From the NCBI RefSeq assembly GCF_029868745.1, contig NZ_JARWOP010000238.1, positions 1-64,000 on the forward strand: DNA of 64,000 bases, given 5' to 3'. The notes under the pieces are model-generated. The model had not been told where the DNA came from. It made no database searches and saw nothing but the letters and a program-made list of their open reading frames with translations. Positions 7,308 through 38,857 of this stretch are shown here, piece after piece; position 1 is the first letter of the stretch; each line of letters begins with the position of its first letter. Source of the stretch: Nocardia wallacei (GTDB lineage: Bacteria > Actinomycetota > Actinomycetes > Mycobacteriales > Mycobacteriaceae). The translations under genes were made by a program, and so were the position numbers.

Positions 7308-7330
7308 GTCGTATCCGCCAGAATTGAGAC

Positions 7331-7363: not shown

Positions 7364-7386
7364 AGGTACGGAGAAAGGGCTCCGCA

Positions 7387-7746: not shown

Positions 7747-7770
7747 GGGCTGGCCTGCCACACAGAAATC

Positions 7771-7825
7771 AGAGGGCTTCGACCGGTGGCCGATCAATCC
7801 ACCGGCCATCGGTCGTCGGCTCTCT
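7771..7825. terminator. Stem-loop between convergent genes
   Basis: AGAGGGCTTCGACCGGTGG pairs with CCACCGG...CGGTCG...GCTCTCT, giving an extended, slightly bulged stem around a nine-base loop. It lies between the 7746 stop and the end of the minus-strand heptose operon at 7903, where a bidirectional terminator is expected. There is no strong T-tract, as is usual in actinomycetes. Confidence 0.6.
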
Positions 7826-7902
7826 TCTGATGCTTCGTGTTCTTGCTGCTGCTCGGTTGAACGCTCCGGTTTGCATTTGGCAGCAGGTCTACGGTGGCTC
7901 GT

Positions 7903-11692: not shown

Positions 11693-11696
11693 GCGG

Positions 11697-16502: not shown

Positions 16503-16516
16503 TGCGTTTCCTCCGA

Positions 16517-17494
16517 TCACAGGGACTTCACAAGCTCGCCGACGCCGAAGGTTTCGGCGCGGGCGTGGTCGAACAGGTCGCGGGCGTACCGGTGGATCAC
16601 CTCGGTGTCCACCGGCTCCAGGCCAGGCAACGCGGCGCGCAGTCGCCGCATATCGGCGCACGTCCAGTACTGGTAGCAGTCACGGATCGGGTTCGGCACC
16701 CCCACCAGCGGCACCGGTGCGCCCGCCCACTCCGTACACCAGCCCAGCAAGGTCTCGAACCGGATCGCGGTCCCGGAACCGAGGTTGTAGACGCCTGCGA
16801 CCTGCGGGGTATCGAGCAGCCGCACCAGCGTCGACACCAGCACCTGCACCGGCAGGTAGTCCCGCGCGGCGGTCAAGGTGTCGTCGAACAACCGGACCGG
16901 CCGCCGCGCCGCCACGGCCGTGACGATCTGCCACAGAATCGAGGCCATCGAGCTTTTGGATTCCTCGCCGGGACCGAAGACGTTCGTGTAGCGCAACCCC
17001 ACGCAATCCAGGCCGAACACCGCCGCGCGGCGCAGCATCGACTGATCCAGGACGAGTTTGGATTTCGCGTAACAATTCAGGGGGCCCGAGCAGCGCCCAC
17101 GATCCTCGGTGTCGGATTCGCGGGACGACGCCCCGTGCGGCACCACGCCGTACACGCTGCCCGAGGAGGCATACACCAGTCGTGTCCCGGAGTCGGTGCA
17201 TGCGCGAGCCAGCCGCAGCGGCACCGTGGCGTTGGCCCACCGCAACCGCTCGTCATCTGCGGCGAGGGTGTCGCTGACCGCTGCCTGGTGCACGACCACC
17301 GCGAACTCCCCTCCAGCGATCCGAGCCAGCACAGCTGGGTCGGCAGCGTCCACGGTGATCGATTCCCACGGCCACGCCGTAGCCGCGGGATTCTGGTCGA
17401 CTCCGGTCACCGTCCACCCGGCCGCATGCAGACCGGTGGCAACATGCCCGCCGATGAACCCGGCCGTCCCGGTGACCAGCACGGAGCGGGTCAT
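16517..17494 (-). CDS. NAD-dependent nucleotide-sugar epimerase (HldD-like)
   Basis: The 325-residue short-chain dehydrogenase has VTGTAGFIGGH (GxxGxxG), the ASSGSVYG strand with catalytic serine, and NCYAKSK containing the YxxxK dyad. The best functional reading is ADP-glycero-manno-heptose 6-epimerase or a related NDP-heptose epimerase/dehydratase, because its start (ATGA) overlaps the heptose kinase-nucleotidyltransferase gene. General GalE/UDP-glucuronate epimerases share the same motifs, so the exact carbon acted on is inference. It ends 14 bases before the radical SAM start. Confidence 0.87.
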   Translation of the reverse strand: MTRSVLVTGTAGFIGGHVATGLHAAGWTVTGVDQNPAATAWPWESITVDAADPAVLARIAGGEFAVVVHQAAVSDTLAADDERLRWANATVPLRLARACTDSGTRLVYASSGSVYGVVPHGASSRESDTEDRGRCSGPLNCYAKSKLVLDQSMLRRAAVFGLDCVGLRYTNVFGPGEESKSSMASILWQIVTAVAARRPVRLFDDTLTAARDYLPVQVLVSTLVRLLDTPQVAGVYNLGSGTAIRFETLLGWCTEWAGAPVPLVGVPNPIRDCYQYWTCADMRRLRAALPGLEPVDTEVIHRYARDLFDHARAETFGVGELVKSL

Positions 17495-19515: not shown

Positions 19516-19586
19516 GGTTACGGATCTCCTTGTCCATCAGCACATTTGATGCTCATTTGGGTTGGCGTTCGCCGGGGCTCACCTCG

Positions 19587-20417
19587 TCATCGCAGTCGCC
19601 CGACGGCGGCGCGGCAACACAGGTCGTCGGCCTGCGGCGGCTCCCAGCCGAGGTTGCGGGCACGACGCTGGTCGACGTCGTGGGGTGACCACCAACGGTG
19701 TGGCGCAACCAGCCCAGGTTCGACGAGGTCATAGCCGGCCAGCAGTGCCGCGACCTCGTCGCGACTGCGAGAACGGAATTCGATGCCGAATCCGGTGTAG
19801 ATATCGGCCGCGCGGTCGACGGGGCCGGGATCAGCGTCACGTGTGATATGGCTGAGTGCCAGGAACGAGCCGCTCGGCAGCATGGTCGTGACCGCGTCCA
19901 CGACCATGCCCGGGTCGGGCAGGAATTCGGCGACGAACGACAGACACACCGCGATCGGCTCGCTCGGATCCATGGCAGCGGTGATCTCGGTGACGAGGGC
20001 GTCGGTGTCGCTCAGATCGGCGTGGACGAATTCAGTTTGTTCGTCGGCGAGAAATACTCGGCCGTGGGCGGCGACCACCGGGTCGTGATCGACGTAGACC
20101 ATGCGTGCGGTCGGCGCGCAGTTGCGGGCTACCTCGTGCAGGTTCGGCGAGCATGGGTAGCCGCTGCCGAGTTCGACGAACTGCCGTACCAGCTGTTCAC
20201 TTGCCAGGTACCGCACGGCCCGCAGCAGCCACAAACGTGTCGCGCGGGCCGCGACCAGAAAGGCGCGGGAGTGGGTGATCAGCTTGTGACCGGCCTCGAG
20301 GTCCACCAGATAGGCGTCTTTGCCCGCACCCAACAGGACGTCGTGAATGCGTCCGCTGTGTGCCTGAGACGGATCGAGCACGATCGCCTCATTGTCTGCG
20401 CGACGGGGACTAGTCAT
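19587..20417 (-). CDS. DUF574-family SAM-dependent methyltransferase
   Basis: The 276-residue protein shows the actinomycete DUF574 pattern: DPSQAHSGRIHDVLLGAGKD near the N-terminus, FVELGSGYPCSPNLHEVA (SAM site), MVYVDHDPVVAAHGR and LSHITRDADP near the C-terminus. Members are numerous in actinomycetes and most have no known acceptor; some act in natural-product clusters. GGAGAGGCG precedes the ATG, which overlaps the end of the 75-residue gene by eight bases. A 71-base gap separates it from the heptose enzyme gene, the longest break in the operon and a possible site of an internal promoter. Confidence 0.85.
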   Translation of the reverse strand: MTSPRRADNEAIVLDPSQAHSGRIHDVLLGAGKDAYLVDLEAGHKLITHSRAFLVAARATRLWLLRAVRYLASEQLVRQFVELGSGYPCSPNLHEVARNCAPTARMVYVDHDPVVAAHGRVFLADEQTEFVHADLSDTDALVTEITAAMDPSEPIAVCLSFVAEFLPDPGMVVDAVTTMLPSGSFLALSHITRDADPGPVDRAADIYTGFGIEFRSRSRDEVAALLAGYDLVEPGLVAPHRWWSPHDVDQRRARNLGWEPPQADDLCCRAAVGRLR

Positions 20418-20637
20418 CTGAGCTCGCCTCTCCGATTTCACTGGCCGCAGTCCCGAGCTGTTCATCGATTCGGTTGCGGACACCGCAGCTCGGTGAGCAG
20501 TACTGGTGCAGCGTCTGGGCATGCAGGGCCTGGCCGTAGGTCAGTGCGCCGGGGTCGGCGAAGCAGTCGCCGATATTGGATTGGGTGTGTGTCAAGGTGG
20601 CCGGGTTCAGGTGCCCTCGCACCAGGCTGTCGGCCAT
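20410..20637 (-). CDS. Small protein with cysteine-histidine motif, 75 aa
   Basis: This short frame is squeezed between the nucleoside hydrolase (TAATG overlap of stop and start) and the methyltransferase (eight-base overlap), which supports it as a real coupled gene. It contains HLNPATLTHTQ, one cysteine at about residue 25 and a LHQYCSPSCGVRNRID segment, which could bind a metal with nearby histidines. I recognise no family. It may be an accessory or carrier protein for the nucleoside hydrolase-methyltransferase pair, or less likely a peptide precursor. Confidence 0.6.
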   Translation of the reverse strand: MADSLVRGHLNPATLTHTQSNIGDCFADPGALTYGQALHAQTLHQYCSPSCGVRNRIDEQLGTAASEIGEASSDD

Positions 20638-21656
20638 TACCGGGTACCGATCGGCATGGCGTGCCCGGTGGCCACGGGTCGGGTGTTCCCCGGCTTATGC
20701 CCGATCAAGGCGGGGTCGTATCGCATCCCGACCTCGAGAGCATGCTGCACCACCGTGGTGACCCACGCCCGAAACGCCGCATAGTCCGCCGCCACCGACA
20801 TGGACAGGGCCACACCGTCGGGGTTGTCGTACATGCGCGCGTCCGGCGCCACCGTCACGTGATGGGTGGCGAACTCGACGAAGCCCATCCCGGCCGCAGC
20901 GGTCACGGTCAGCGGGTCGGCCGCCATCGACGCGGAACGTTCCCCGGCGAACCATCGGTCGTAGCCCGCAGCGACGAGTTTCGCCCACTTCGGCGCGTTG
21001 GCCGCCGCGAGCAGCTGATACACCTCGCTGTCCGCGTCGATCGCGGTCTCGGGGGTGAAGGTGACATCGGAGGTCACCAAGGCTACGTCCAGATCGGGCG
21101 CGGTCAGCACCGTCCGGGCGCTTGCGGGGTCCATGCGCAGGTTGTGCGAGGCACGATCGGGCCGTCTGTACAGATGGGCGAAGCCGCCGCCCATCTGCAT
21201 GATCGTCAGCCGCCGCGCCAACCCCGGTGCGTCGGCGTAGAGGTGGGCCAGGTTGCTCATCGGTCCCTGACCGATCCACGCCGCACGCCCGGTCTCGCCC
21301 AGCACCGCGCGCACGGCGTCGATTACCGACCCGGTCACCGGCGCCGAGACTGGCGGGAATCCGGCGGGCACCAGACCGTCGCACACCCATCGCGCTTGCG
21401 CGCCCTCGATTTCCGCGCCGGCGACCACCACGACCCCGGTTCGCCCGCACAAGTTCAGCAGGAACCGCGCCAGCCTTGCGCGTTGACCGCCGCCGAATTC
21501 GTCACTGGTCACCACCAGCCGCAGCGGCAGCGCCGCCGCAGCGAGGATGAGCGCCAGCAAATCGTCCGGGTCGTGCCCGACATCAGTGCAGATAATGGCG
21601 GGCATGCGGTCCATCGGCCGCATGCCAGGCCGCATCGGTGCTCGTATCGAGTCCAT
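20637..21656 (-). CDS. Inosine-uridine nucleoside hydrolase family protein
   Basis: The 339-residue protein has the IUNH calcium-binding start in IICTDVGHDPDD, a variant of the DxDxGxDD signature. It continues with LVVTSDEFGGG, GQGPMSNLAHL and MQMGGGF, where other members carry the active-site asparagine and metal contacts, and SHNLRMDP with the late aspartate. The family cleaves N-glycosidic bonds of ribonucleosides, so here it may liberate a base or a ribosyl unit, or act on a nucleoside-like intermediate. The first 14 residues are extra; internal methionines at residues 15 and 18 would reduce the overlap with the upstream small gene and may be the true start. Confidence 0.85.
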   Translation of the reverse strand: MDSIRAPMRPGMRPMDRMPAIICTDVGHDPDDLLALILAAAALPLRLVVTSDEFGGGQRARLARFLLNLCGRTGVVVVAGAEIEGAQARWVCDGLVPAGFPPVSAPVTGSVIDAVRAVLGETGRAAWIGQGPMSNLAHLYADAPGLARRLTIMQMGGGFAHLYRRPDRASHNLRMDPASARTVLTAPDLDVALVTSDVTFTPETAIDADSEVYQLLAAANAPKWAKLVAAGYDRWFAGERSASMAADPLTVTAAAGMGFVEFATHHVTVAPDARMYDNPDGVALSMSVAADYAAFRAWVTTVVQHALEVGMRYDPALIGHKPGNTRPVATGHAMPIGTR

Positions 21657-27127: not shown

Positions 27128-30100
27128 TCATCCATCCCGCTTCTGCAGCATTTGGTGGACTTCTCGCCAGTCGATTCCGGCTGGAGCTTTCGCCAGGATC
27201 GCGGCCAGTAGACCCAGCCGTGCGGTGCGGTCGGCGGGGTCGTCGGCCATGACCAGGACATCGTCGAAAAACGTGGTCAGTGGCTCGATCAGGGTGTGGC
27301 CGTGGGGGATCCATTCGGTCAACGGCTTGCCATCGGCAACAGGCACCGAACCCATCACGGTCAGGAGCTGCTGCTCGGCGGGGCCGATGAGCCTAGCGGG
27401 GTCGTAGGTGGTGGGCGCGGCGGGAGGCAGGATCCGCATGATCCGTTGCAGTCCTTCCACAAGGTCGGCGAATCGGTTGTCCTCGCTGGCTTCGCTGATC
27501 TGGTCGATCAACATGTCCGCGCGATGCGGGGCCTCGGCGGAGGGACGGACTGCGGCGATGAGTCCTGGACCGACTGCTTCGTCGCGGAGTCGCTGCTCGT
27601 AGCGGGTGGTGATCAGTTCCTCAGCAGTGGACAGGACCGCGGGGTCGATGGTGAGGCCCTGGCCGCGGAGTTGGTCGGCGGCGGTCCTGAGGCCGATTGG
27701 GATGGTGACGTCGGCGAGTTCGGGGTGGTCGCGCAGGATTGCCAGGATTCCGGCTGCCGCGCGGCGCAGGCCGTAGGGGTCGGCGTTGCCGGTGAGTTTG
27801 GCGCCGACGGCGAGCATCGCGACCAGGAGGTCGAAGCGGTCTGCCAATGCAAGGAGCGCGCCGGGTGTGGTGGTGGGGAGGTCGTCTCCGGACGAGCGGG
27901 GCAGCTCCATTTCCCACAGTGCCGTGGCCACTGGTTCGGATTCGCGGGACTTGGTCGCGTATTCGCGCGCCATAGTGCCGGCGAGGGAGGTCATTTCGAT
28001 CACCATTTGGGTGGCGAGGTCGAACTTCGCGAGGGCACCAGCGCGGGTCAAGGTGGCCGCGTCAGCAGCAGGGAGGCCACTGCGGGTGCCAAGTATGGAG
28101 GCCGCTGTGGCAATGCGGTCGGCGCGGTCAGCCATGGTGCCGACCTTCTCGTGGAACATGAGTGCCCCGAGCCGGGCCCGGAACTGGTCAGGGGCGATGG
28201 TCAGGTCGACATTCCAGAAGAACGCGGCATCCTCGAAGCGGGCGCGGAGCACGTTTTCGTTGCCGCCGCGGACGACGTCGGCGTCGCAGTCGCCGTTGGC
28301 CATCGTCACGAAGACCGGCAGCAGGTCACCCGCGCCGGAGCGGACCGGGAGGTAACGCTGATGCTTGCGCATCACAGTGATGAGGATTTGTTCTGGCAGG
28401 TCGAGGTATTTCGGGTCGAAATGGCCCAGGATACCGGTCGGGGATTCGACGAGGTTGGTGATCTCATCGATCAGGTCGGCGTCGCCGTCGACGTCGATCC
28501 GGCCGTTCGCGGCCTCAGCCAGAGCGGCGGCCGAGGACACGACGCGTGCGCGGCGCTCGACCGGGTCGACGACGATTCCCGCGGCCTCGAGTACTGGGAG
28601 ATAGTGGTCGGCGGCAGGGAGATCGAACGTCGGTGTAGCGGACTGGCGGTGGCCTCGGGTGCTGCGGCCCGCTACCAATGTGCCGGCGGTGATCGGGAGG
28701 ATCTGGTCGCCGAGTAGCGCGGTGAGCCATCGGATAGGGCGGGAGAAACTCAATTCCGGATCACGCCAGCGCATGTTCTTGTCCGCCCGCAACGACAGGG
28801 TGAGCCGGGACAGGACATCGGTGAGTACCACTGCCGCCGAACGGCCGGCGCGAGTGCTCTCGACCGCGACGTGCTCGGCACCGCCGACTTCGATCCGTTG
28901 CAGATCATCGGCCGAAACACCCTGCGCACGAAGGAAACCGGCGAGAGCCGGAGTGGATTTACCGTCGGCATCGTAGGCTGCGGCGACCTTCGGGCCCCGG
29001 CGCACGTTCACGCTGTCGGGTTCCCTATCGGCGATGCCCTCGACTCGCACGCCGATCCGGCGTGGGGTCGCCTGCACGGTGATCTCACCATGCGGCAGGG
29101 CAGTGGAATCAAGGAGTTCGATGAGTGTGGCGCGCACGCTGGAAATGCTCGCGGTCACGACATGCGGCGGTAGTTCCTCGGTGCCGATCTCGAACAGCAG
29201 CACCGATCCGGGTGCTGAAGTGATCGTGGCGGGATCGACGGGAGAAGTGGCCAGCGGCGGCGGGGCGTGTACTCCGCGCGGATACCCGGCCTCCGCACGT
29301 AAGTCGGTCCACAGGGCGGCGATCTCGCGGGATTGCTTGCGCATCACCGCGAACCACTTCGCGCGCTCGGCTGTACTCACCGCACCGCGCGAATCCAGAA
29401 TGTTGAATGCGTGGCTGGATTTCAGGACATGTACATGCGCAGGGACCGGCAGCCGGGTGGTGATCATCCGGTCGGCTTCGGCCGAGTACGCGGCGAGCAG
29501 GCCACGGGTGGTGTCGATGTCGGCGTCGTCGAGGTAGTAGCGCGACATCTCGTACTCAGACTGGCCGAACACTTCGCCGTAGCTGACGCCGGGCGCGTAG
29601 GCGATGTGCTCGAAGTGTGTGACGCCCTGGATCGCCATCAGGATCCGCTCGAGGCCGTAGGTGATCTCGACCGGGATCGGGTCGAGGTTCTGTCCCGCGA
29701 CCTGTTGGAAGTAGGTGAACTGGGTGATCTCCATACCGTCGAGCCAGACTTCCCAGCCCAGACCCCACGCCCCGATCGCCGGCTGAGCCCAGTTGTCCTC
29801 CACGAACCGCACATCGTGGGCATCGAGGTCGATACCGAGCGCGGCCAGCGAACCCAGGTACAACTCCTGCGGATCACCCGGTTCAGGTTTGAGTATCACC
29901 TGGAACTGGGTGTGGGTCTGCAAGCGGTTCGGGTTCTTACCGTATCGAGAGTCGTCGGGACGTACGGATGGTTCGACGTAGGCGACGTTCCAGATTTCCG
30001 GACCCAGCACACTCAGCAGCGTGGCGGGGTTCATCGTGCCGGCACCGACCTCGGTGTTGAACGGCTGACCCAGCAGGCAACCTCGCTGCGACCAGTACGC

Positions 30101-30175
30101 CTGCAGACGAAGGATCGCTTCCTGCATCGATACGGGGACGGAGGGGTTGTCGTTGTGGGCAGTTGCCGTGGTCAT
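27128..30175 (-). CDS. glyQS: Single-chain alpha-beta glycyl-tRNA synthetase (GlyQS type)
   Basis: At 1,015 residues this is a full fusion of the two subunits of bacterial tetrameric glycyl-tRNA synthetase. Residues about 17-300 are the alpha subunit (MQEAILRLQAYW, GAGTMNPATLL, EPSVRPDDSRYG, ITYGLERILMAI), the class II catalytic domain that activates glycine. Residues about 322-1015 are the beta subunit (LLFEIGTEELPPHVV, KHQRYLPV) with HD and anticodon-binding regions. Most actinomycetes that I know use the unrelated dimeric GlyRS, so this is probably a second copy. Its ATG overlaps the radical SAM stop (ATGA), coupling its translation to the peptide-modifying operon. Self-resistance or supply of glycyl-tRNA to the pathway are the two readings. 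Confidence 0.9.
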   Translation of the reverse strand: MTTATAHNDNPSVPVSMQEAILRLQAYWSQRGCLLGQPFNTEVGAGTMNPATLLSVLGPEIWNVAYVEPSVRPDDSRYGKNPNRLQTHTQFQVILKPEPGDPQELYLGSLAALGIDLDAHDVRFVEDNWAQPAIGAWGLGWEVWLDGMEITQFTYFQQVAGQNLDPIPVEITYGLERILMAIQGVTHFEHIAYAPGVSYGEVFGQSEYEMSRYYLDDADIDTTRGLLAAYSAEADRMITTRLPVPAHVHVLKSSHAFNILDSRGAVSTAERAKWFAVMRKQSREIAALWTDLRAEAGYPRGVHAPPPLATSPVDPATITSAPGSVLLFEIGTEELPPHVVTASISSVRATLIELLDSTALPHGEITVQATPRRIGVRVEGIADREPDSVNVRRGPKVAAAYDADGKSTPALAGFLRAQGVSADDLQRIEVGGAEHVAVESTRAGRSAAVVLTDVLSRLTLSLRADKNMRWRDPELSFSRPIRWLTALLGDQILPITAGTLVAGRSTRGHRQSATPTFDLPAADHYLPVLEAAGIVVDPVERRARVVSSAAALAEAANGRIDVDGDADLIDEITNLVESPTGILGHFDPKYLDLPEQILITVMRKHQRYLPVRSGAGDLLPVFVTMANGDCDADVVRGGNENVLRARFEDAAFFWNVDLTIAPDQFRARLGALMFHEKVGTMADRADRIATAASILGTRSGLPAADAATLTRAGALAKFDLATQMVIEMTSLAGTMAREYATKSRESEPVATALWEMELPRSSGDDLPTTTPGALLALADRFDLLVAMLAVGAKLTGNADPYGLRRAAAGILAILRDHPELADVTIPIGLRTAADQLRGQGLTIDPAVLSTAEELITTRYEQRLRDEAVGPGLIAAVRPSAEAPHRADMLIDQISEASEDNRFADLVEGLQRIMRILPPAAPTTYDPARLIGPAEQQLLTVMGSVPVADGKPLTEWIPHGHTLIEPLTTFFDDVLVMADDPADRTARLGLLAAILAKAPAGIDWREVHQMLQKRDG

Positions 30176-31566
30176 CCGGAAATCCTATCGGTGGCGAGAG
30201 CGGGCATTCCGAGCGCTACTCCGGTCGCTGGAGCGAAGAAGCTGGGCAGGTGGCAGCCGCCGCGGCAGGCGTCGGCGACTGCGCAACCGGTGCAGGTTGG
30301 CCTGGTGGCGACCGCTGCGTGCACGGCGTCGGTCAAGGCGGGCCATGCTCCGGCGAGGGGTTCGGTGTGCAGGGAACCGAAGTAGACGTTGGAGTGCGGA
30401 CAGTTCCGCAATCGGCCGTCGTAGGAGACGCTGCCCCACACCATTCCCGATTCGCAGTGCCCGGATATCTGCGACAGCCGCAATCCGAGGGTTGGGTCGT
30501 CGGACCGTAACGGGGTGTCGGTATCGGAGGTGCACACCTTCTGCGCGCAGGGCCACGCCACCGTCATCCCGGGGCATTCGGTGGCAAGGAGGTGGTCGAT
30601 GCGGGTGATCAGCGGCATGGTGACCGACACCGGAATGCCGTAGCGGTCGTCGTGGCGGCCGGTCGGGACGTAGCGCATGACGCCGAACTCGCGCACCCCG
30701 AGCGCATGCACATCGCGGATGACGTCCAGCGCACCGTCGATGTTGCTTTTGACCAGTGTCATCTCCGCGACCACGGTGATGCCGGCGTCGATCAGCAGTC
30801 GCATCGCGTCGATCGCGCGGTCATAGGCGCGGGGATGGCCGGTTAGTTCGTTGTGGGTGTCGCGGTCGCCGTGGATCGAGACGAGGACACAGCGCACGTT
30901 CGCTGCTGCCAGCCGCTTCGCCCGTTCGGCGGTGAGGAAGTGGCCGTTGGTGAACACCACCTGGTACAGGCCGCGGCGTCCACCGTGTTCGAAGATCTCC
31001 ATCGCATCGGGGTGCAGCAGTGTCTCACCGCCGCTGTAGCGGATGACGAAACAGCCCCGGTCTGCGCATTCGTCGAGGATCGAGCATGCCAGCTCGGTCG
31101 GAATATGCTTTTCCGGCAATGCTTTTACCGCGCGCCGGACCTCGGCGTCGCTCATGTCCGGGTCGATCTTCCACACGTTGTAGCAGAATCCGCACGCCCA
31201 GTTGCATACGGCGGTGAGCTCGATTTCCAGCCGCAGCGGGAAGTCCAGCTTCGTGTCGAACCGCTTGTCGACGCCCAGCAACGATCCGCGGCCGTCGTCC
31301 TGGACGGCTGCTGGCTGCGGGGAGGTCAGGGTGGCGACCAGGTCGGCGGCGTCGGCGGCGACGCGTGAGGGGGCGGCGTTGTAGCGCTTCGCGATATCGC
31401 CGATGACGGTGTCGTCATCGGCGCCGGAGAACATCAGGGACACCATCGATTCGGCGACCGCGTTGCGGAGTCGATGGAAGGTGCCGGTGTGTGGGTCGAA
31501 CAGCAGGCCGAGGTCGGCACGGTATCTCAGCTGCTGGGTCAGGGCCCGGGACAGGGTGGCGGGCAT
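30172..31566 (-). CDS. Radical SAM/SPASM peptide-modifying enzyme with N-terminal PqqD-like domain
   Basis: Of 464 residues, about 12-85 form a PqqD-like RiPP recognition element (HRLRNAVAESMVSLMFSG...TVIGDIAKRYNAAPSRVAAD). Residues about 110-330 are a radical SAM domain with C121, C125 and C128 in CNWACGFC, followed by RYSGGETLLHPD and VFTNG. The C-terminal part has SPASM-type cysteines (CESG...NCPHSN, CTGCAVADACRGGC) for auxiliary iron-sulfur clusters. Enzymes of this build cross-link or oxidise ribosomal peptides. GAGGAGC stands before the ATG. The gene follows the GST-like gene by 26 bases, behind the 30-codon precursor. Confidence 0.92.
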   Translation of the reverse strand: MPATLSRALTQQLRYRADLGLLFDPHTGTFHRLRNAVAESMVSLMFSGADDDTVIGDIAKRYNAAPSRVAADAADLVATLTSPQPAAVQDDGRGSLLGVDKRFDTKLDFPLRLEIELTAVCNWACGFCYNVWKIDPDMSDAEVRRAVKALPEKHIPTELACSILDECADRGCFVIRYSGGETLLHPDAMEIFEHGGRRGLYQVVFTNGHFLTAERAKRLAAANVRCVLVSIHGDRDTHNELTGHPRAYDRAIDAMRLLIDAGITVVAEMTLVKSNIDGALDVIRDVHALGVREFGVMRYVPTGRHDDRYGIPVSVTMPLITRIDHLLATECPGMTVAWPCAQKVCTSDTDTPLRSDDPTLGLRLSQISGHCESGMVWGSVSYDGRLRNCPHSNVYFGSLHTEPLAGAWPALTDAVHAAVATRPTCTGCAVADACRGGCHLPSFFAPATGVALGMPALATDRISG

Positions 31567-31592
31567 CGCGATGCTCCTCGAATCGGGGACGG

Positions 31593-32597
31593 TCAGACGG
31601 GTGAGAGCCGCGCGAACAACGTGGTGACGTCGTCAGCAACGCGCTCCGGCGGCACCTCATAGGTTTGGGCGAGCGTCTGCGTGATCTGCTCGAGGTCGAG
31701 ACCCCGGTAAGCCAGCCGCACTGCCTCCGCGGCGGTGGTGTTGACCAGTCGTTCGCAGCGGTCGCGTTGCCAGTCGTGCAGCAATTGCTTGCCCGGGTGA
31801 TAGCGGTAGTGGCGCAGGATCCACTGCGGCGACCCGGTCGGGGCTTCGTCGATGGCCCGGTAGATTGCGCGGGCCTGGTCGATGTGGTCAGCGACCGACG
31901 GTCGTTCCAGCAGTCGACGCGCGTAGTCGCGCACGGCGGGGTCGTCGATGCCGATATGCCAACCGCGGAGCTGCTGGAAGTAGGTCGACACCATCACATC
32001 CGCGAGCCCGAAGTCCCCGACGAGGAACGGACCACCCGAACGGCCCAACAATCCGGACACGACGTCACACAGCCACCGTGCCTGCCCCACCGCGCCGGGC
32101 CCAGGAATGCCGGGGGCGGTACGGAGCGAGCGAGCGTAGGACGCGCCCTCGCGCAGGTACGGCAGGTCGTGACTCGCCCAGGCGGAGATAGAGCGGACCA
32201 AGGCCCGCTGGCGTCGCGTGGTGCCCATGAGGCTGGGACCGGAGTCCGGTGCGATTTCATCGAGGTATTCGGCGATCGAGACCACATCTCCGGCAACGGC
32301 TCCGGTCTCGGTGTCGGCCAGAATCGGGACCCGAGGCAGCAGCGACATCGCGGAGTCCTCCAGAATGCCTTCGACATCGGCTTCCGCGAGTTCGTCGGCA
32401 TCACACGCGCAGCCGATACCGGCCTCGCGTTCGTCGGTCCCGTCGCCGGCGAACAGCACCCCGTCCGGACTTTCCCGGATCGGCCAATCCAGCTCCACGA
32501 TCCTTTCGGCCACTGGAAGGCCCTTCTCGGCCACCGCGACTCGACCGCGCATCGACCATCCCGAAAAGTGGAGATCACCCACGTACAAGGTCAGCAT
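31593..32597 (-). CDS. Glutathione-transferase-fold protein fused to C-terminal PqqD-like domain
   Basis: Residues about 1-245 of 334 have a GST layout: LTLYVGDLHFSGWSMRGRVAVAEKG, VPILADTETG...DVVSIAEYLDE (thioredoxin-like half with cis-Pro) and a helical C-half with VGDFGLADVMVSTYFQQL. Residues about 285-332 (NTTAAEAVRLAYRGLDLEQITQTLAQTY..VADDV) are a PqqD-like peptide-binding domain. The combination suggests a thiol-linked chemistry guided to a leader peptide. Actinomycetes use mycothiol, so the thiol donor is unknown. The chosen ATG has AAGGGG seven bases before it. A longer frame starts at 32663, two bases after the precursor stop. Confidence 0.85.
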   Translation of the reverse strand: MLTLYVGDLHFSGWSMRGRVAVAEKGLPVAERIVELDWPIRESPDGVLFAGDGTDEREAGIGCACDADELAEADVEGILEDSAMSLLPRVPILADTETGAVAGDVVSIAEYLDEIAPDSGPSLMGTTRRQRALVRSISAWASHDLPYLREGASYARSLRTAPGIPGPGAVGQARWLCDVVSGLLGRSGGPFLVGDFGLADVMVSTYFQQLRGWHIGIDDPAVRDYARRLLERPSVADHIDQARAIYRAIDEAPTGSPQWILRHYRYHPGKQLLHDWQRDRCERLVNTTAAEAVRLAYRGLDLEQITQTLAQTYEVPPERVADDVTTLFARLSPV

Positions 32598-32664
32598 TCG
32601 ACCACCCCTTGTTGTTGCCGCCGGTCCCTGGCCGACCACACCGCGGCCGACCAGGGTTGTCATC

Positions 32665-32757
32665 TCAGTCGCACTGGCGGCTGATCATCGTTTTCGTCTC
32701 CACCTTGGGGGCTTCGTACTCCCCACGCTCGGCCGTGGTGGTGGTTTGCTCCGACAT
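32665..32757 (-). CDS. Putative 30-residue RiPP precursor peptide
   Basis: This frame is below the usual gene-calling limit. It begins MSEQTTTTAERG behind a good ribosome site (GGAAGGG, seven bases before ATG). It contains GEYEAPKVETK, with YEAPKV at residues 14-19 resembling the YxxPxL-type leader motif that PqqD-like recognition domains bind, and ends with ISRQCD including one cysteine (C29). The layout is leader plus very short core, as in mycofactocin and PQQ precursors. It is the first gene of a same-strand run with two PqqD-domain enzymes. The modified residues are unknown, but C29, R27 and the terminal aspartate are candidates. Confidence 0.75.
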   Translation of the reverse strand: MSEQTTTTAERGEYEAPKVETKTMISRQCD

Positions 32758-32893
32758 GACTTTTCCCTTCCGTCGGTCTCCTGGACGGTGGCTGGAGTGC
32801 ACGAATCCTGCTACTTCCGAACAGGTTTTCGATCAGCCACGATTCGAGTGTCTGTCGACTGCGGTGTATGTGCTATCCCTGCTGCATCCCGAG

Positions 32894-32998: not shown

Positions 32999-34219
32999 AT
33001 GCTGGCGCCGCCCTCTATCGACCAGGTGAAGGACAGCTTGAGACGGGTGCGCCGCGGACTCGGATTGGCGCGGCCCACAGCACTGCTCACCATCATCGGC
33101 GAACCTGTGCAGGCATATCTGTGCCGCGACTCCGACGTCGAGCCTGGCTCTGCCGAACACATCGAACATCTCGCCGCAATCCTGCGTCAGGCGATCGGTC
33201 AGCTCACTGAGAGCGAGCGGGTCTACGCCGAAGTGGATTTCAACGTTCGACCTGACCACAGTTACCCGACGCTCACCGACAGGCAAGAGTCCCTGGCCCA
33301 GCACCTCAAGTGCGCGGTGAAGACCGTGCGCCGCCGTTCCGACCAAGCCCTCGACACCCTGGCTTATCTCCTGGTAACGATCTCGTCGGCTCCTGACGGG
33401 GCACAGACGCAGGCCATCGACCGCAGCCCGAGCCACCACGGCCGGGCCAGCAAACAGGATCCCTACGATGCTGTGCGCCGGTTCTGGGGCCTGCGTCCTG
33501 GCGGTGGCGTCGACATTGTCTGCTCCGAAATCCCCGTGGACGAACGTCCAGAGTATGCGTCACCACAGGATCGGAACTACCTGCGGTATGCCAAGTTCGC
33601 TGACTTGGACACATTGATCTTCGTCCGTACCCAACTGGCGCAACTCGCTCCCACCGCGGTTGTGCGCGACTTCGCGCCCTCGGAGTACTTCGATACCCAG
33701 GTCGAGGTTCTCGTGGTGATCGGCGGCCCACCGTGGAATGCCAAATACCGGGAGTTCCTCCCGCAGTTACCCTTCTACTTTGATGCGAATCCGCTCGGTG
33801 AGGACGACCCTCTCGTCGTACCCGAACTGGACAATCGCTGTATGGCTCCACGGTGGACACCCGGTGGCGAGCTGATCGAAGACCTCGCCGTGCTCACCCG
33901 GCTCACCGTGCAGGGAACCACCGCGCTACTGCTGGGCGGGTGCCTCACCCTCGGGGTCCTCGGCGCGGCCCGCGCACTACTCGATCCACGACGAGGACCC
34001 ACCAATGTCGAATACCTCTCCGACCACGTCGGTCAGGATGACTTCGTCGTGGTCACCGAAGCCCGTCGCGTCGGCGGCATCACCGACGTCGCCGACCTCA
34101 CCGTCATGGAGCCCCTGCTGCTCATGTCCCGCCCCCACGGCGCGAACTGGGGAGTCGTGATCGACAACACCAAACGCTTCACCTGCCATCACCGCTGCTC
34201 CCCCGGGCAAACGGCGTGA
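32999..34219 (+). CDS. Helix-turn-helix protein with sensor domain carrying GGPxxN
   Basis: The N-terminal 125 residues include a helix-turn-helix (LTDRQESLAQHLKCAVKTVRRRSDQ) of the type found in actinomycete regulators. The C-terminal 250 residues form an alpha/beta sensor-like region: VDIVCSEIP, YAKFADLDTLIFVRTQLAQL, VEVLVVIGGPPWNAKYREF, and a hydrophobic LLLGGCLTLGVLGAARAL near the end. I do not recognise the exact family; it looks like a one-component regulator that senses a nucleotide or small ligand. AAGGTGG stands before the ATG. It is divergent from the RiPP precursor and its last codon overlaps the GT25 gene (GTGA), so it probably regulates the whole locus. Confidence 0.7.
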   Translation: MLAPPSIDQVKDSLRRVRRGLGLARPTALLTIIGEPVQAYLCRDSDVEPGSAEHIEHLAAILRQAIGQLTESERVYAEVDFNVRPDHSYPTLTDRQESLAQHLKCAVKTVRRRSDQALDTLAYLLVTISSAPDGAQTQAIDRSPSHHGRASKQDPYDAVRRFWGLRPGGGVDIVCSEIPVDERPEYASPQDRNYLRYAKFADLDTLIFVRTQLAQLAPTAVVRDFAPSEYFDTQVEVLVVIGGPPWNAKYREFLPQLPFYFDANPLGEDDPLVVPELDNRCMAPRWTPGGELIEDLAVLTRLTVQGTTALLLGGCLTLGVLGAARALLDPRRGPTNVEYLSDHVGQDDFVVVTEARRVGGITDVADLTVMEPLLLMSRPHGANWGVVIDNTKRFTCHHRCSPGQTA

Positions 34220-34950
34220 CGAATCTGGACGACATCGCCACCTATGTCGTGAATCTGCCACGGCGGAAAGACCGCCGAGCATGGATCAGCGCCCGGCTAC
34301 CTTCGGCAATGACGGTCACCTACACCTCGGACCTCGACGTGGTCATCGACGGCCGGCAACTCGCCACCAGCGACCTCCAGGCGCTTGGAATCAAGCTGTT
34401 CGACTGGCAAATCGACTCCGACAACCCGTGGTGGAATCGACCGCTCAAATACGGCGAAATAGGCTGCACTCTCGCTCATCTCGCATGCTGGAACCACGCC
34501 GAGAAGCACAGCGCAGCCCCGTACACTCTGATCCTCGAAGACGACGCGACCCTCCCACCGGAATTCGCACCACGCCTTCTCCAGACCCTGAACCTGATCG
34601 ACGAAGTCGATATCGCATTCGACATGCTGTACCTCGGGCGCGACCTGCTCCGGCCGGACACCCCTACGCCGGTTCCCGGGATCGTCCACCCCGGCTACAG
34701 CCACTGCAGCTACGCCTATCTGCTCACTCGCAGTGGCCTGCGTACCGCACTGTCCACCGAACTCACCGAGGCCATCGTGCCGGTCGACGAGTTCCTTCCC
34801 GCCCTCTACACACCACATCCACGACCCGATGTGCGGGCACGGTTCGCACCGCGACTCACCGCGCTAGCGTTCGATCCGCCGCTGGTCACACAACGACCGA
34901 AGGACGACGCCGGCAGCGACACCGAGAATTCCGACTTCATTCGGTGGTGA
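34216..34950 (+). CDS. Glycosyltransferase family 25
   Basis: The 244-residue protein opens with IATYVVNLPRRKDRR, then has EIGCTLAHLACWNHA and YTLILEDDATLPPEF, with the EDD metal site, and YAYLLTRSGLR and VPVDEFLP: the GT25 pattern of LPS and collagen galactosyltransferases that use UDP-sugars. It overlaps the regulator gene, so it is co-expressed with it. A role in glycosylating the peptide product, or an envelope target, is possible but unproven. Confidence 0.82.
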   Translation: MTNLDDIATYVVNLPRRKDRRAWISARLPSAMTVTYTSDLDVVIDGRQLATSDLQALGIKLFDWQIDSDNPWWNRPLKYGEIGCTLAHLACWNHAEKHSAAPYTLILEDDATLPPEFAPRLLQTLNLIDEVDIAFDMLYLGRDLLRPDTPTPVPGIVHPGYSHCSYAYLLTRSGLRTALSTELTEAIVPVDEFLPALYTPHPRPDVRARFAPRLTALAFDPPLVTQRPKDDAGSDTENSDFIRW

Positions 34951-34963
34951 TGCGCGGCTTCGA

Positions 34964-35626
34964 TCACCGCATCGGTCGCGGTGCCGTCCAGTGTTCGATC
35001 AGCGCCGAAAGACGTTTACCGGGCCACTCGCCGATCGGCGTGTGAACATTGACGCCGGTGACGACGTGCTCACTCGGCACGTTCTTGGTCACGACCGCGC
35101 CGGCCGCGACGTAGCTGCGAGGCCCGATCCGGACGCCGCCGACCACTCGTGCACCAAACCCGACCACCGAATCCGCCTCGACCACGGGCGGTTCTTCATC
35201 CACTCCCCACCAACCCAGATGCGGACTCGTGTACTCGTGGACCAGCTCGCCCATCACGGTCGCGCGGTCACCGATCACCGTCGCATCGCAAACGAACCCA
35301 GCGACACACGCGTCCGCGCCGATCGTGACGCGATCACAGATGTAGGCGCCGTGGACGACCCGGGTCCGGTCGCCGATCACACACCCGTACCCGATCCGTG
35401 CCCGGTCTTCTACCACGCACTCCATGCCAAGAGCTGTGCCTTCCTGGATGATGACCTGGTTGAACAGCAGACTCCGATCTCCGATCACGACAGGAGTACC
35501 CGCCGACCATCGCCCACGTTGAGCTTCCCGCAGACGCGTTTCCTTCGGGCATCCCAGAACGCAGTGCTCGCCGATGATCACATCATCACCGAGCCGAATC
35601 GGCCCGTGCAGGTCCCTGGGAGTCAC
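34964..35626 (-). CDS. Hexapeptide-repeat (LbetaH) acyltransferase
   Basis: The 220-residue protein has isoleucine/valine hexapeptide repeats from start to end: IRLGDDVIIGEHCVLG, RIGYGCVIGDRTRVVHG, VTIGADACVAG, and VVGGVRIGPRSYVAAGAVVTKNVPSEHVVTG, the usual left-handed helix close. It resembles WbbJ/WxcM-type sugar O- or N-acyltransferases that use acyl-CoA. The GTG start overlaps the hydrolase stop by four bases (GTGA), so it is translated with the alpha/beta hydrolase. It converges with the GT25 gene at 34950, 13 bases apart. Confidence 0.85.
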   Translation of the reverse strand: MTPRDLHGPIRLGDDVIIGEHCVLGCPKETRLREAQRGRWSAGTPVVIGDRSLLFNQVIIQEGTALGMECVVEDRARIGYGCVIGDRTRVVHGAYICDRVTIGADACVAGFVCDATVIGDRATVMGELVHEYTSPHLGWWGVDEEPPVVEADSVVGFGARVVGGVRIGPRSYVAAGAVVTKNVPSEHVVTGVNVHTPIGEWPGKRLSALIEHWTAPRPMR

Positions 35627-36417
35627 GAGGCGGGCGCGACCTGGCCGACCAGCCAGTCAACCGTCTCCGAGATCGCCTGATCTTCGCGCTCCCGCGAGTC
35701 GAAGCCGTGATCCGAACCAGCGATGGTACGCAGCGCCGTATTCGGCCTCGACATCGCGGCCCGAGCGGAAATCTCGTAGGAGACCGCGGTGTCACGGTCT
35801 CCATGGACGATCAGCGACGGCACGGTGCTGTCGAGGAATCGTGCCAGTGGGTCGTAGTGGGCGAACTCGCTGAACAACACGCGGCCGAGTTCGAATTCCC
35901 CGTCGACCACCAGGACTCCGGTGTCGTGCAATAGTTTGCGCTGCGACGCGCCGAAGTTCTCTTCACCCCACGCCAAATCCGGCTCCAGGAACGTATGCCG
36001 CAGGTCGAGGACAGGATTCCACAGCACCAACCGATCAAGCCCATCAGCAAGCCACGGCAGCGACAGCACCGTGGACACGGCCCCGAAACTAGCCGCCACA
36101 ATCGAAAACCGGCCCGGAAACCGCCCCTGGAGGAACTGCACCGCAGCCTCCAGATCCAGGCACTCGCCAGCAATGGTCACTCCGCGTTGCGTCCCACCGC
36201 TGTTTCCATGCCCCCGGAACGAGAACCGCACGACATCAAATCCCACAGCGGTCAGTCGCTCGGCCAAGCGGACGAACATCCCACCGCCCTCGTCCATATC
36301 CACAGTGATCCCGTGCACCAGCAGCACGACCCCCTTGGCCGGAACGGATGCCATATGGACCGCTGCGTCGAGCCGCACACCGTCCACTGATCCCAATGTG
36401 ACGCTCTCAACCGGCAA
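35623..36417 (-). CDS. Alpha/beta-hydrolase (lysophospholipase/esterase-like)
   Basis: The 264-residue protein has the fold marks VVLLVHGITVDMDEGG (oxyanion loop), FSFRGHGNSGG, the nucleophile elbow in VAASFGAVSTV (A-S-F-G-A, a mild G-x-S-x-G variant), the acid in IVHGDRDTAV and the histidine in AGSDHGFDS. It should hydrolyse an ester or transfer an acyl group. The start is TTG with GAGGAAACC directly before it; no better codon is available. It follows the oxygenase gene by 12 bases and precedes the acyltransferase with overlap. Confidence 0.85.
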   Translation of the reverse strand: MPVESVTLGSVDGVRLDAAVHMASVPAKGVVLLVHGITVDMDEGGGMFVRLAERLTAVGFDVVRFSFRGHGNSGGTQRGVTIAGECLDLEAAVQFLQGRFPGRFSIVAASFGAVSTVLSLPWLADGLDRLVLWNPVLDLRHTFLEPDLAWGEENFGASQRKLLHDTGVLVVDGEFELGRVLFSEFAHYDPLARFLDSTVPSLIVHGDRDTAVSYEISARAAMSRPNTALRTIAGSDHGFDSREREDQAISETVDWLVGQVAPAS

Positions 36418-36429: not shown

Positions 36430-37179
36430 TCAATCCCCAGGCTCGGACCACAGTGCGTCCATCGTCTCGTGCGATACGGGCCGCGACAATTCATCCTCCG
36501 CCGCGAACGCCATGTTCACAATCGTGCGGCGGCCCCGCCGAATCGGGTGCACCCGATGCAGCGTCGTACTCGCCCGCATGAGATACACCTGTCCCGGACC
36601 GGCCTCCAGCCGGTGGATCGCGCGATCACGAAGTACCTGCTCGATGCCCGGCTGCTGCTTATCCCACACCGTGCCCGGGACACACTCGACGAATCCGCCG
36701 TCAACGGTGTCCGGGCATTCGGCCACCCACACCAGCGCGAAACTGTAATCGTCCCAATGCCATCCATGCGTGTCACCCACCCGGTCCAGCTGGGTAACCA
36801 CGAACTGTTCGGGCTCATACGGGCATGAATACACAGCTTGACCGGCCACGGCAGCCACAACCTCGGCGACCTCGGGTGATGCATACGTCTCCCGGATCAC
36901 AACTCCGCTCTCCGCGATCTGCGCCCGCCTCACGTTCCTCATCCGGCGAGGCGTGAAACCTGTCTCGGCGAAAGCCAAGTCCCGACGGACGCCCAACTGC
37001 TCCGCCAACCAGATGGCCTCAGCCGCAATCGCATACCGAACTGACGCGGGAAAGAGCCAGGACACCACCGCGGCACCGTGCCGCTCCAGGTCGTCATGCG
37101 CGGCGGCGATCCGCTGCGCATGTTCGACTTCGTACCTCGTGTTCACACCACCGGTCATAGCGGACCGCGCTGCGCTCAC
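36430..37179 (-). CDS. Fe(II)/2-oxoglutarate-dependent oxygenase
   Basis: The 249-residue double-stranded beta-helix protein shows the facial triad: H-W-D in DTHGWHWDDYSF and the distal histidine in LHRVHPIRRGRRTIVNMAF, where the arginine eight to ten residues later would hold 2-oxoglutarate. The substrate strand YEPEQFVVTQLD precedes the first. It resembles phytanoyl/peptide or amino-acid hydroxylases. The GTG at 37179 overlaps the upstream kinase stop (GTGA); an ATG seven codons in is a shorter alternative. It probably hydroxylates the pathway product or a precursor. Confidence 0.85.
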   Translation of the reverse strand: MSAARSAMTGGVNTRYEVEHAQRIAAAHDDLERHGAAVVSWLFPASVRYAIAAEAIWLAEQLGVRRDLAFAETGFTPRRMRNVRRAQIAESGVVIRETYASPEVAEVVAAVAGQAVYSCPYEPEQFVVTQLDRVGDTHGWHWDDYSFALVWVAECPDTVDGGFVECVPGTVWDKQQPGIEQVLRDRAIHRLEAGPGQVYLMRASTTLHRVHPIRRGRRTIVNMAFAAEDELSRPVSHETMDALWSEPGD

Positions 37180-38114
37180 TTCCACCCGACCCGCCGCTGC
37201 AACCACGCAACCGTTGCGCGACCTGACTCGGCGCGGTGCCGACGCAGAGCCACCGACTGCGACCCTCCAGGCCGACGGCTCTCTCGGATCCAGTACCCCG
37301 CCAGCGCGCACACCAGCGCAGAGATCGCATCAGGATCGACGCCCCGGGTGAGGGCGTGCGAGCCCAGGATCGGTTCGGGATCGACCCCATGCAGGGCGAA
37401 GGCGGTCGCCAGGAACACCAGATCCACCCACGCCGCACCCACGGATGGCCAGGACCAGTCCACGATCATCACCGTGCCATCGGGGCGCACCAGCATGTTG
37501 TCGGCGCGAAGATCGGTATGCAGCAACGTCTGCCCGACCGTGGCACGCTCCCACCCGGATTCGAGAACAGCGAGCCGATCCACGTTCCGGGCCGACCACT
37601 CGTCCAAGTTACCGGCCAGCTCGCCGCCGGCCAGCTTCCGCCAACCTGATAAGTCCGATCCGAGATCATCGGCCAGGGTCGGTACGTCCGGTAGTGGGTT
37701 CGGTGTCAGCATCCGTGCCATGTCCTCGACCACGGCGAGCACCGCCGCCAATTCCGTAGGCTGGTCGAAACGGGGATGGCGACCGGTGACGTCGTCGAAT
37801 ACCAGGACTCGCCACCCGTCGATTTCCAGCATGAACCTCACCGCTGGTGCCGGGATCTCTGCTGGGAGCTGAGTCGCGGTGTCGCCTTCGATCCGGTACC
37901 GGTGGGCGAAACGGTCTCTGATGGGGATTGCTTTGGCAAACACCGTGCGACCGTCCACCATCGCTAGCCGGGATGCCATTCCGCGGCTGAATCCGCCCGG
38001 TTGGGTCGATCCCGAACGCACTCCCGCGCCCAAGCGACTCTCGATCTCGCCTCGCACCGAGATGGGCAGCTCGCTCCACGCGATCCGGGACACCGGGATT
38101 TCGATCTCGGTCAT
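37176..38114 (-). CDS. Aminoglycoside-phosphotransferase-like kinase
   Basis: The 312-residue protein kinase-like fold has a nucleotide lobe (FAKAIPIRDRFAHRYRIEGD), Brenner's motif LLHTDLRADNML with the catalytic aspartate, and MIVDWSWPSVG as the metal-binding aspartate. APH-family members phosphorylate antibiotics or small metabolites. Here it could be a self-resistance enzyme or a biosynthetic kinase. It heads the minus-strand set of oxygenase, hydrolase and acyltransferase, all coupled by overlaps or short gaps. Confidence 0.85.
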   Translation of the reverse strand: MTEIEIPVSRIAWSELPISVRGEIESRLGAGVRSGSTQPGGFSRGMASRLAMVDGRTVFAKAIPIRDRFAHRYRIEGDTATQLPAEIPAPAVRFMLEIDGWRVLVFDDVTGRHPRFDQPTELAAVLAVVEDMARMLTPNPLPDVPTLADDLGSDLSGWRKLAGGELAGNLDEWSARNVDRLAVLESGWERATVGQTLLHTDLRADNMLVRPDGTVMIVDWSWPSVGAAWVDLVFLATAFALHGVDPEPILGSHALTRGVDPDAISALVCALAGYWIRESRRPGGSQSVALRRHRAESGRATVAWLQRRVGWK

Positions 38115-38302: not shown

Positions 38303-38857
38303 TCAGGACAGATCAGAACCCAACATCGAATACATGATCATGTCCCGACGCTCCTCGCCGACCAGCTGCCAACTGCGGAGCAGGCCCTCACACTGGAAAC
38401 CCACACGCTCAGCCGTCCGCTGGGATGCGGCATTCCAGGGCTCGACATATAGGTGAAGGCGGCGGATCTCCAGGTCAGTAAGGGCCCAGGCAGTGACCGC
38501 TCGAAGCGCTTCCGCAGCGACCCGCTGACCACGAGCGGACTTGACCACCCAGTAGCCCAGCATCGCACGCCCCTCGTCCAGGTCCCGCAACCACAGACCG
38601 ACCGACCCGAGCGGCCGACCGTCCTCAACCCGCACGATGACGAACGGATACCCACTGCCGGTCGATACACGCTCCCACTGCCGACGCACGAAGGCTTCGC
38701 CTGCTTCTCGCGAGTACACCGCCGGAACGGTCGTGATCAACGGGATGTGATCGTCGCTCGACGCCTCTCGAACCAGAGGCAGGTCGCTGATCTCCCAGGA
38801 GCGGAGCACAAATCTGTCGTTTGCAGTCAAACGCGGGATATCCAACGGGGCAACCAT
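38303..38857 (-). CDS. GNAT N-acetyltransferase (RimJ/RimL-like)
   Basis: The 184-residue protein has GNAT order: an N-terminal RLTANDRFVLRSWEISDLP, GSVGLWLRDLDEGRAMLGYWVVKSARGQRVAAEAL (motif A, with the acetyl-CoA loop as ARGQRVA), and WNAASQRTAERVGFQCEGLLRSW (motif B). It may acetylate a ribosomal protein N-terminus, an antibiotic or a pathway intermediate. It sits 188 bases upstream of the kinase gene on the same strand. The stretch 38858-39139 upstream holds a 39-codon frame (38875-38994) without a ribosome site and nothing I can support. Confidence 0.82.
   Translation of the reverse strand: MVAPLDIPRLTANDRFVLRSWEISDLPLVREASSDDHIPLITTVPAVYSREAGEAFVRRQWERVSTGSGYPFVIVRVEDGRPLGSVGLWLRDLDEGRAMLGYWVVKSARGQRVAAEALRAVTAWALTDLEIRRLHLYVEPWNAASQRTAERVGFQCEGLLRSWQLVGEERRDMIMYSMLGSDLS

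Follow-up and report, generated by a model that had tools for sequence, protein, structure and literature searches.

A candidate RiPP family in Nocardia with a PqqD-fused glutathione S-transferase and an extra glycyl-tRNA synthetase proposed for self-resistance

Pyrroloquinoline quinone (PQQ) and mycofactocin are made from peptides through PqqD domains and SPASM enzymes; in mycofactocin synthesis the precursor is modified at its C terminus, and neither pathway is known to include a glutathione S-transferase (GST) fusion or a glycyl-tRNA synthetase (GlyRS). The precursor of microcin C ends in Asn. Here we describe a locus at positions 27128 to 32757 of a 64,000-nucleotide stretch of Nocardia wallacei DNA (contig NZ_JARWOP010000238.1 of assembly GCF_029868745.1), the whole of which we call the window, that bears comparison with these systems. 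Microcin C is described as a ribosomally synthesized and post-translationally modified peptide (RiPP) that inhibits aspartyl-tRNA synthetase (PMC7136475), while AcmD and SbzA, extra alanyl- and isoleucyl-tRNA synthetases of the ascamycin and SB-203208 clusters, are reported to be more resistant or self-resistance proteins (PMC12945691). Fusions of a RiPP recognition element (RRE) with a GST were flagged by RRE-Finder in 2020 as potentially novel RiPP clusters (PMC7470986). We propose, with a probability of roughly 60%, that the locus in the window represents a new RiPP family whose product would hit GlyRS and whose extra synthetase would provide self-resistance.

The locus shares with the mycofactocin and PQQ pathways a PqqD domain and a SPASM radical S-adenosylmethionine (SAM) enzyme with a small precursor, but its enzyme scores far under their cut-offs. 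Like the clusters with AcmD and SbzA, it has an extra aminoacyl-tRNA synthetase inside a biosynthetic cluster; however, the products reported for those two are a nucleoside sulfamate and sulfonamides (PMC12945691) rather than ribosomal peptides, and the extra enzyme here is a GlyRS of two unrelated types, one per subfamily. The difference from microcin C is that no ThiF-like adenylyltransferase was matched among the four core proteins and ten window neighbors, and that the peptide here would be modified by radical SAM and GST enzymes. The fusions flagged by RRE-Finder are of the same type as ours, and the passages that present them give no precursor family, function, or link to GlyRS (PMC7470986). 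Our searches of the open-licence literature gave no report that connects GlyRS to a RiPP or radical SAM cluster, and no bacterial product with GlyRS as its target; the GlyRS inhibitors described in print include glycyl sulfamoyl adenosines (PMC7760260) and, from a screen of 5090 compounds, the plant alkaloid lycobetaine and scutellarein (PMC11988775). The locus would represent a RiPP family that is new but follows known logic, and its target hypothesis is unusual.

A sequence-only reading of this DNA had described four same-strand genes in a stated order, headed by an uncalled 30-codon open reading frame (ORF) with a ribosome site, and ATGA coupling of the radical SAM and GlyRS genes. We found all four genes as a tight run on the minus strand (precursor, GST-PqqD, radical SAM/SPASM, and GlyRS), the overlap where it was placed, and the short ORF with GGAAGGG upstream of it and with homologues in which it is kept. 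The features of the locus are as follows.

32665..32757, minus strand: precursor gene, 30 amino acids (MSEQTTTTAERGEYEAPKVETKTMISRQCD), with a Y-E-A-P leader motif and the C-terminal ISRQCD, from translation, homologues, and codon-position counts.
32758..32782, minus strand: stretch directly upstream of the precursor start, with the ribosome-site-like GGAAGGG, from the sequence.
32668..32676, minus strand: codons of the C-terminal Q-C-D, the probable end of the core; Q-C is kept in the precursors found, and the last residue is D, N, or H, or is replaced by SF in a sister family.
31593..32597, minus strand: GST-PqqD fusion with a C-terminal PqqD domain, from Pfam, an alignment of 11 sequences, and a structure model; the coordinates follow the conserved start, and the open frame begins at 32663.
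30172..31566, minus strand: radical SAM enzyme with a CNWACGFC motif, SPASM-like C-terminal cysteines, and a weak PqqD-like N-terminal region, from Pfam/NCBIfam and an alignment of 8 sequences.
30172..30175, minus strand: ATGA overlap of the radical SAM stop and the GlyRS start, from the sequence.
27128..30175, minus strand: complete single-chain alpha-beta GlyRS of 1015 amino acids, an extra copy with a proposed role in self-resistance, from NCBIfam/Pfam and a tree.

The closest named match to the window DNA is N. puris, at 99.99% identity over 21 kb. Of the 14 close Nocardia loci, several being near-copies, 13 have a matching short ORF beside these enzymes, as do all three Bacillota loci. 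Most of these precursors were found with patterns that require Y-x-x-P and a C-terminal C-N/D or Q-C, so their shared ends are partly a condition of the search, while those in L028, L064, L065, and L066 were read without a pattern (L and G numbers are our handles for loci and genomes). The Nocardia precursors resemble ...EYEAPKVETKTMISRQCD, and the Bacillota ones resemble ...EYKRPTVKSAKGPSLQCN. They are 22 to 38 amino acids long (22 to 25 in the Bacillota versions), with a variable N terminus, and those found keep Y-x-x-P and a terminal Q-C followed by D, N, or H. When the last 18 codons of 10 Nocardia precursors were compared in all pairs, codon positions 1, 2, and 3 differed 138, 31, and 235 times, with 165 synonymous and 154 other codon changes; the corresponding position counts are 10, 8, and 30 in four precursors of the sister family, which end in QCSF, and 10, 14, and 25 in three Bacillota precursors. 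All 14 precursors inspected have a purine-rich, ribosome-binding-like stretch in the 25 bases upstream. Given these codon-position differences, the purine-rich upstream runs, and the conservation, we take the precursor ORFs to be a real gene family. As expected of a RiPP locus, a short precursor gene with a conserved recognition motif and core lies beside modifying enzymes.

PqqD-like domains had been assigned to two of the genes from the letters alone, and this held in full for one of them. The GST fusion contains a PqqD domain at 27.1 bits against a Pfam cut-off of 23.4, and so has the RRE domain of a RiPP pathway, whereas the N terminus of the radical SAM enzyme reaches only 15.2 bits, under the same cut-off, although it can be aligned to the PqqD portion of the fusion (31.5% identity over 73 residues, E 1e-9, in a two-sequence search). 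Against NF033530, the lasso peptide PqqD chaperone family, the fusion scores 25.8 of 70 bits, below the curated cut-off. In the alignment of 11 GST-PqqD sequences, from which L055 was left out, the motif F-S-x-W-S-M-R near the start is invariant, Ser positions are kept, and an invariant G-C-x-C lies in a poorly modeled stretch. The structure model has a mean predicted local distance difference test (pLDDT) score of 77.6, with a good GST part except for residues 36-88. It has a GST fold, matching bacterial GSTs in the PDB (4jbb, Z 22.3, root mean square deviation 3.1, 201 residues aligned) in a search that covers residues 1-251, the part before the PqqD domain. A Burkholderia plasmid GST is a match at 25% identity only.

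The radical SAM domain of the window enzyme scores 69 bits against a Pfam cut-off of 29.5, and the alignment of 8 enzymes from both subfamilies shows CNWxCGFC and nine further invariant Cys, eight of them C-terminal, as in SPASM maturases. The enzyme is far below the curated maturase cut-offs (mycofactocin, 61.3 of 265 bits; PqqE, 59.2 of 381.35 bits; StsB-type sactipeptide, 58 of 625 bits), and no curated maturase family was reached by score among the 25 matches listed. It is reasonable to infer that the chemistry would take place at the conserved Cys.

The GlyRS had been called a complete single-chain enzyme, and it matches NF011499 over nearly its full length with 1306 bits against a cut-off of 1244; its solved single-chain relatives are 7xjy and 7lu4. 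The suggestion that a housekeeping dimeric GlyRS be looked for elsewhere in the genome was borne out, as the host has one ordinary alpha2 GlyRS on another contig (G000:C14). The locus thus shows the arrangement of a duplicated synthetase target, with a full-length extra enzyme in the cluster and an ordinary copy elsewhere. Housekeeping GlyRS is of the alpha2 type in 148 of 150 Nocardia genomes; one alpha2 copy was found in 141, at least two in 7, and none at threshold in two low-completeness genomes.

A scan of the contigs of 84,980 species genomes with exact short peptide patterns, by which relatives can be missed, gave 20 loci: 14 close Nocardia loci, two distant Nocardia loci, one each in Priestia and S. 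rostri, and two in Planctomycetota/Phycisphaerae (L067 and L068, 27-28% identity) that we discarded as unrelated. GlyRS is present in all 14 close loci (interrupted in L059), and GST-PqqD and the precursor are each present in 13, L059 having neither. Five of the 14 (L049, L050, L051, L058, and L063) share 99.75% identity or more with the window across 21 kb. The N. anaemiae locus, L055, has an in-frame stop near the end of GST-PqqD (8979-9983) and a precursor with no evident ATG, and judging from these features the copy may be decaying.

In the 150 Nocardia genomes, an alpha-beta GlyRS occurs in 21 (damaged in G234 and a fragment in G427), and a radical SAM gene of the QC-N/D/H type occurs in 18, all within those 21. 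The gap between the matched parts of the GlyRS and radical SAM genes is at most 91 bp in 17 of the 18 loci; the other, in G427, is a damaged pair 1257 bp apart. The sequence-only reading had staked its proposal on the short ORF and gene order being conserved, on the genes co-occurring in other genomes, and on this GlyRS not being the organism's sole GlyRS, shared by all relatives that lack the other genes. The ORF and order are conserved in the close Nocardia loci; precursor, GST-PqqD, and radical SAM genes recur together in Nocardia, Priestia, and Geobacillus; and the alpha-beta GlyRS occurs in only those 21 of the 150 Nocardia genomes, 18 of which have the radical SAM locus. When the sister family is included, all 23 Nocardia radical SAM loci adjoin an extra GlyRS (17 intact alpha-beta enzymes, one damaged, and five alpha2). 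Of the 27 genomes that have an extra GlyRS, 22 carry the locus, compared with 0 of the 123 that have none; the Fisher p of about 6e-22 is not to be taken literally, as the rows are related by descent. One of the Nocardia genomes, G348, has two alpha2 GlyRS genes (L129 and L130) that are 98.4% identical, have different flanks, and occur with no radical SAM locus.

The sister family comes from the two distant Nocardia loci, whose radical SAM enzyme is 33-36% identical and whose precursor ends in ...TTENLPPQCSF. These loci also contain two radical SAM enzymes, a TrmO-like protein, and one or two PhyH dioxygenases, with an alpha2 GlyRS directly upstream. In L065, the one QCSF locus scanned, a PqqD domain is over the cut-off in the second radical SAM enzyme, and none was found in the first. 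The same QCSF gene set occurs in G313 and G420, and G361 has a fifth QCSF precursor with the GlyRS, both radical SAM genes, and PhyH. All five QCSF genomes keep a further alpha2 GlyRS; the five are among the 7 genomes with at least two alpha2 copies, and each locus adjoins its extra copy. Among 15 Nocardia handles within 17 examined (G310 and G447 look like one genome), the four with two alpha2 copies are exactly the four with a QCSF cluster. That two unrelated GlyRS types stand at the same place suggests that it is the GlyRS function itself that matters.

We also found that the cluster alpha2 copies tested (four, two of them identical, so three distinct) form their own clade (100/99) and share S79A, K183M, A190G, N290S, T298A, and R317H relative to 15 housekeeping copies (housekeeping numbering). 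Ser79 is kept in the 15 housekeeping copies, two Bacillota enzymes, and five aligned solved chains, and what we take to be the class II motifs are intact by eye in the cluster copies. This comparison and tree left out L083, which is from the same genome as L082, and L092, L093, L073, and L074, which repeat the genes of rows used.

In a tree of alpha-beta GlyRS, 12 cluster proteins and the orphan enzymes of G382 and G423 form one clade (100/100), apart from 19 proteins of other genera; left out were the near-copies L058 and L063, the broken L059, loci known only by a genome handle, and G234. The two orphans are intact and nested at different places in the cluster clade, in genomes with no radical SAM match. 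From these positions, the GlyRS seems to have outlived the other biosynthetic genes in both genomes, as an immunity gene would. At the 19 loci of other genera, no common cluster linked to the alpha-beta GlyRS was found, and besides GlyRS only three gene families recur in at least four loci, all within the same five genomes. Within the order, alpha-beta GlyRS matches were found in 22 genomes (G234 and 21 outside Nocardia), and in 17 of these an alpha2 GlyRS also passes the family cut-off.

Outside Nocardia, a plasmid search added Geobacillus thermodenitrificans pLW1071 to the scan results. The Priestia and Geobacillus loci consist of a precursor, a radical SAM enzyme, GST-PqqD, and a major facilitator superfamily (MFS) transporter. 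In S. rostri (L066, 101-1915 of a small contig), precursor and MFS genes are intact, while the radical SAM gene is truncated and continues into a GST-PqqD tail (45% over 22 residues); to judge by these remnants, it is a decayed cluster. At E 1e-60, the radical SAM family was found in one of 394 genomes of the class (the window's own) and in one of 348 genomes of the Priestia order (Priestia itself), and a plasmid search with the Geobacillus enzyme returned 163 records, namely, itself and 162 under 60% identity (at most 27% among the 19 matches listed). About 3 kb beyond the MFS gene of the Priestia locus (L062, 16782-18936) are nicotianamine-synthase-like and staphylopine dehydrogenase-like genes, probably an opine metallophore cluster.

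From what we observed (gene content, conservation, co-occurrence, a GlyRS that is a second copy, two kinds of extra GlyRS, and a lone GlyRS in two genomes), we infer a pathway in which each step after translation, namely, leader binding, chemistry, release, target, and resistance, is conditional. The ribosome would make a precursor of 22-38 amino acids, and the PqqD domain (RRE) of the GST fusion, together with the weaker PqqD-like region of the radical SAM enzyme, would bind the leader with its Y-x-x-P motif. The C-terminal Q-C-N/D end would then be modified by the SPASM radical SAM enzyme together with the GST domain, and a hydrolase would free a short product that inhibits glycyl-tRNA synthetase. 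In Nocardia, a coexpressed extra GlyRS would protect the producer, this being an unrelated alpha-beta enzyme in QC-N/D/H clusters and a diverged alpha2 enzyme in QCSF clusters. The recurrence of precursor, radical SAM enzyme, and GST-PqqD in two phyla argues for this reading, as do the census counts, the two GlyRS types in one position, the orphans nested in the cluster clade, the separate clade of cluster alpha2 copies with their S79A change, and the AcmD precedent.

Several points weigh against it. The reading is at its weakest with the Bacillota version, as no extra GlyRS was found in the stretches examined in Priestia and Geobacillus, and Priestia (G443) and S. rostri (G444) each have a single alpha2 GlyRS and no alpha-beta enzyme. 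The latter result led us to reject the idea that Bacillota owners use an alpha-beta enzyme as their housekeeping GlyRS and would thus not require a spare. Export may serve in its place; immunity in Bacillota would have to come from the MFS transporter, or the product would have to differ. The census counts are not independent, because one radical SAM score is common to 7 of the 18 QC-N/D/H loci, and DNA identity to the window is 99.86-99.96% in the three for which it was determined. In addition, G348 and G438 have two alpha2 copies with no locus; the orphan GlyRS genes could be separate acquisitions; and the orphan of G234 is damaged, so the enzyme is not always kept. Among the substitutions of the cluster alpha2 copies, A190G is likewise present in the solved chain 8t5n and the S. 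rostri enzyme, and N290S in both Bacillota enzymes.

The sequence-only reading had offered two roles for the GlyRS, a resistant target copy or a source of glycyl-tRNA for extending the peptide. The first fits better, given the unrelated GlyRS type in the sister clusters, a GlyRS that seemingly outlives the other genes, and no aminoacyl-tRNA-using transferase or tRNA-Gly found in the core or the loci scanned; the second, in which the GlyRS supplies glycyl-tRNA or glycylates an intermediate itself, we consider fairly unlikely. The tight coupling of GlyRS to the radical SAM gene would suit a biosynthetic enzyme. A GNAT fold is common to some aminoacyl-tRNA-using enzymes, and a GNAT gene lies at 38303-38857, but it was found in the window and five near-copies only. 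Such roles are reported for the synthetase-like enzymes AcmF and SbzA (PMC12945691). On the other side, none of the four core proteins matched a known family of aminoacyl-tRNA-using ligases or transferases, and, in line with the earlier statement that no ligase gene is seen, no Pfam match to the LanB-like ligase of aminoacyl-tRNA-dependent peptide ligase (PEARL) pathways was found among these and the ten neighbors. No tRNA-Gly was found in the window or 16 related loci. The housekeeping GlyRS could supply Gly-tRNA anyway; Bacillota versions have no extra GlyRS, and orphan GlyRS genes occur apart from the other genes.

The patchy, mobile distribution of the locus is like that of antibiotic genes, and the genes common to the loci compared include no partner dehydrogenase or metal gene, both of which make it quite improbable that the product is a cofactor or metallophore and the GlyRS a stress-tolerant spare during production, for example, under metal shortage. 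This explanation has the precedent of PQQ and mycofactocin, and the conserved Cys of the core and the GST could bind metal. A protective GlyRS might also guard against another product of the island, such as one made by the carbamoyltransferase, SHMT, and nucleoside-hydrolase genes of the same element (4762-21656), and its position next to the peptide genes would then be incidental. We regard this as very unlikely, since the homology of L052 and L060 to the window stops just past the GlyRS, so that those genes are not shared there, the GlyRS stays beside the radical SAM gene in diverged loci, and the QCSF clusters show the same link with the other GlyRS type.

We thus favor a RiPP that targets GlyRS with the extra synthetase as self-resistance. 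A fuller version, offered tentatively and with somewhat more doubt than belief, is that the radical SAM enzyme and a leader-tethered GST shape a short product from the C terminus of the precursor (around Q-C-N/D, or PPQCSF in the sister family), and that self-resistance through a spare GlyRS evolved twice, once with an imported unrelated enzyme and once with a diverged own copy; this would be the first ribosomal peptide family known to us that targets GlyRS. If the proposal is true, the cluster names its own target, which makes a direct test possible, and GST-PqqD would add a new type of enzyme to RiPP biosynthesis. With a precursor of 22-25 amino acids, two enzymes, and one MFS transporter, the Bacillota version is small enough for reconstitution. 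A selective GlyRS inhibitor would interest drug discovery, because the Nocardia housekeeping GlyRS belongs to the alpha2 type and has three close relatives among solved chains, which we take to be mycobacterial.

Upstream of the precursor, the window contains the following genes that recur in the 14 close loci.

32999..34219, plus strand: divergent 406-amino-acid protein with no Pfam match, a neighbor in 11 of 14 loci.
34216..34950, plus strand: glycosyltransferase family 25-like protein, a neighbor in 10 of 14 loci.
34964..35626, minus strand: hexapeptide-repeat acyltransferase-like protein, a neighbor in 10 of 14 loci.
35623..36417, minus strand: alpha/beta hydrolase, a neighbor in 10 of 14 loci.
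36430..37311, minus strand: HalD/BesD-like halogenase, a neighbor in 8 of 14 loci.

The first four form a cassette found in 10 of the 14 loci; in an eleventh, where the contig ends, its first gene is present. None of the cassette or halogenase genes is in the stretch examined of L053, L055, or L059, so the cassette is not essential to the unit. The alpha/beta hydrolase is a possible releasing hydrolase. The structure model of the 406-amino-acid protein (pLDDT 43.6) is too poor for use. The halogenase gene adjoins the hydrolase and a kinase-like gene, and its product scores 179 bits against a BesD cut-off of 450.

The 72-kb contig that holds the window (window 115-64000, contig to 71910) matches G436 and G445 at 99.86-99.96% identity across 71.8 kb, and G414 shares 49.5 kb of this stretch, whereas the housekeeping GlyRS region of G000 is only 80% identical to that of G445. 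The element carries integrases, conjugation-like ATPases, a replication-relaxation protein, and a Tn3 transposase. Given the near-identical 71.8 kb against the 80% housekeeping region, together with the integrases, conjugation-like ATPases, and transposase, the locus is on a very recently spread mobile element. The same element contains, at window positions 4762-21656, DHDPS-like, GDSL, carbamoyltransferase, SHMT-like, epimerase, SIS-PfkB-cytidylyltransferase, and nucleoside hydrolase genes, a possible second biosynthetic cluster whose make-up recalls nucleoside or sugar antibiotics.

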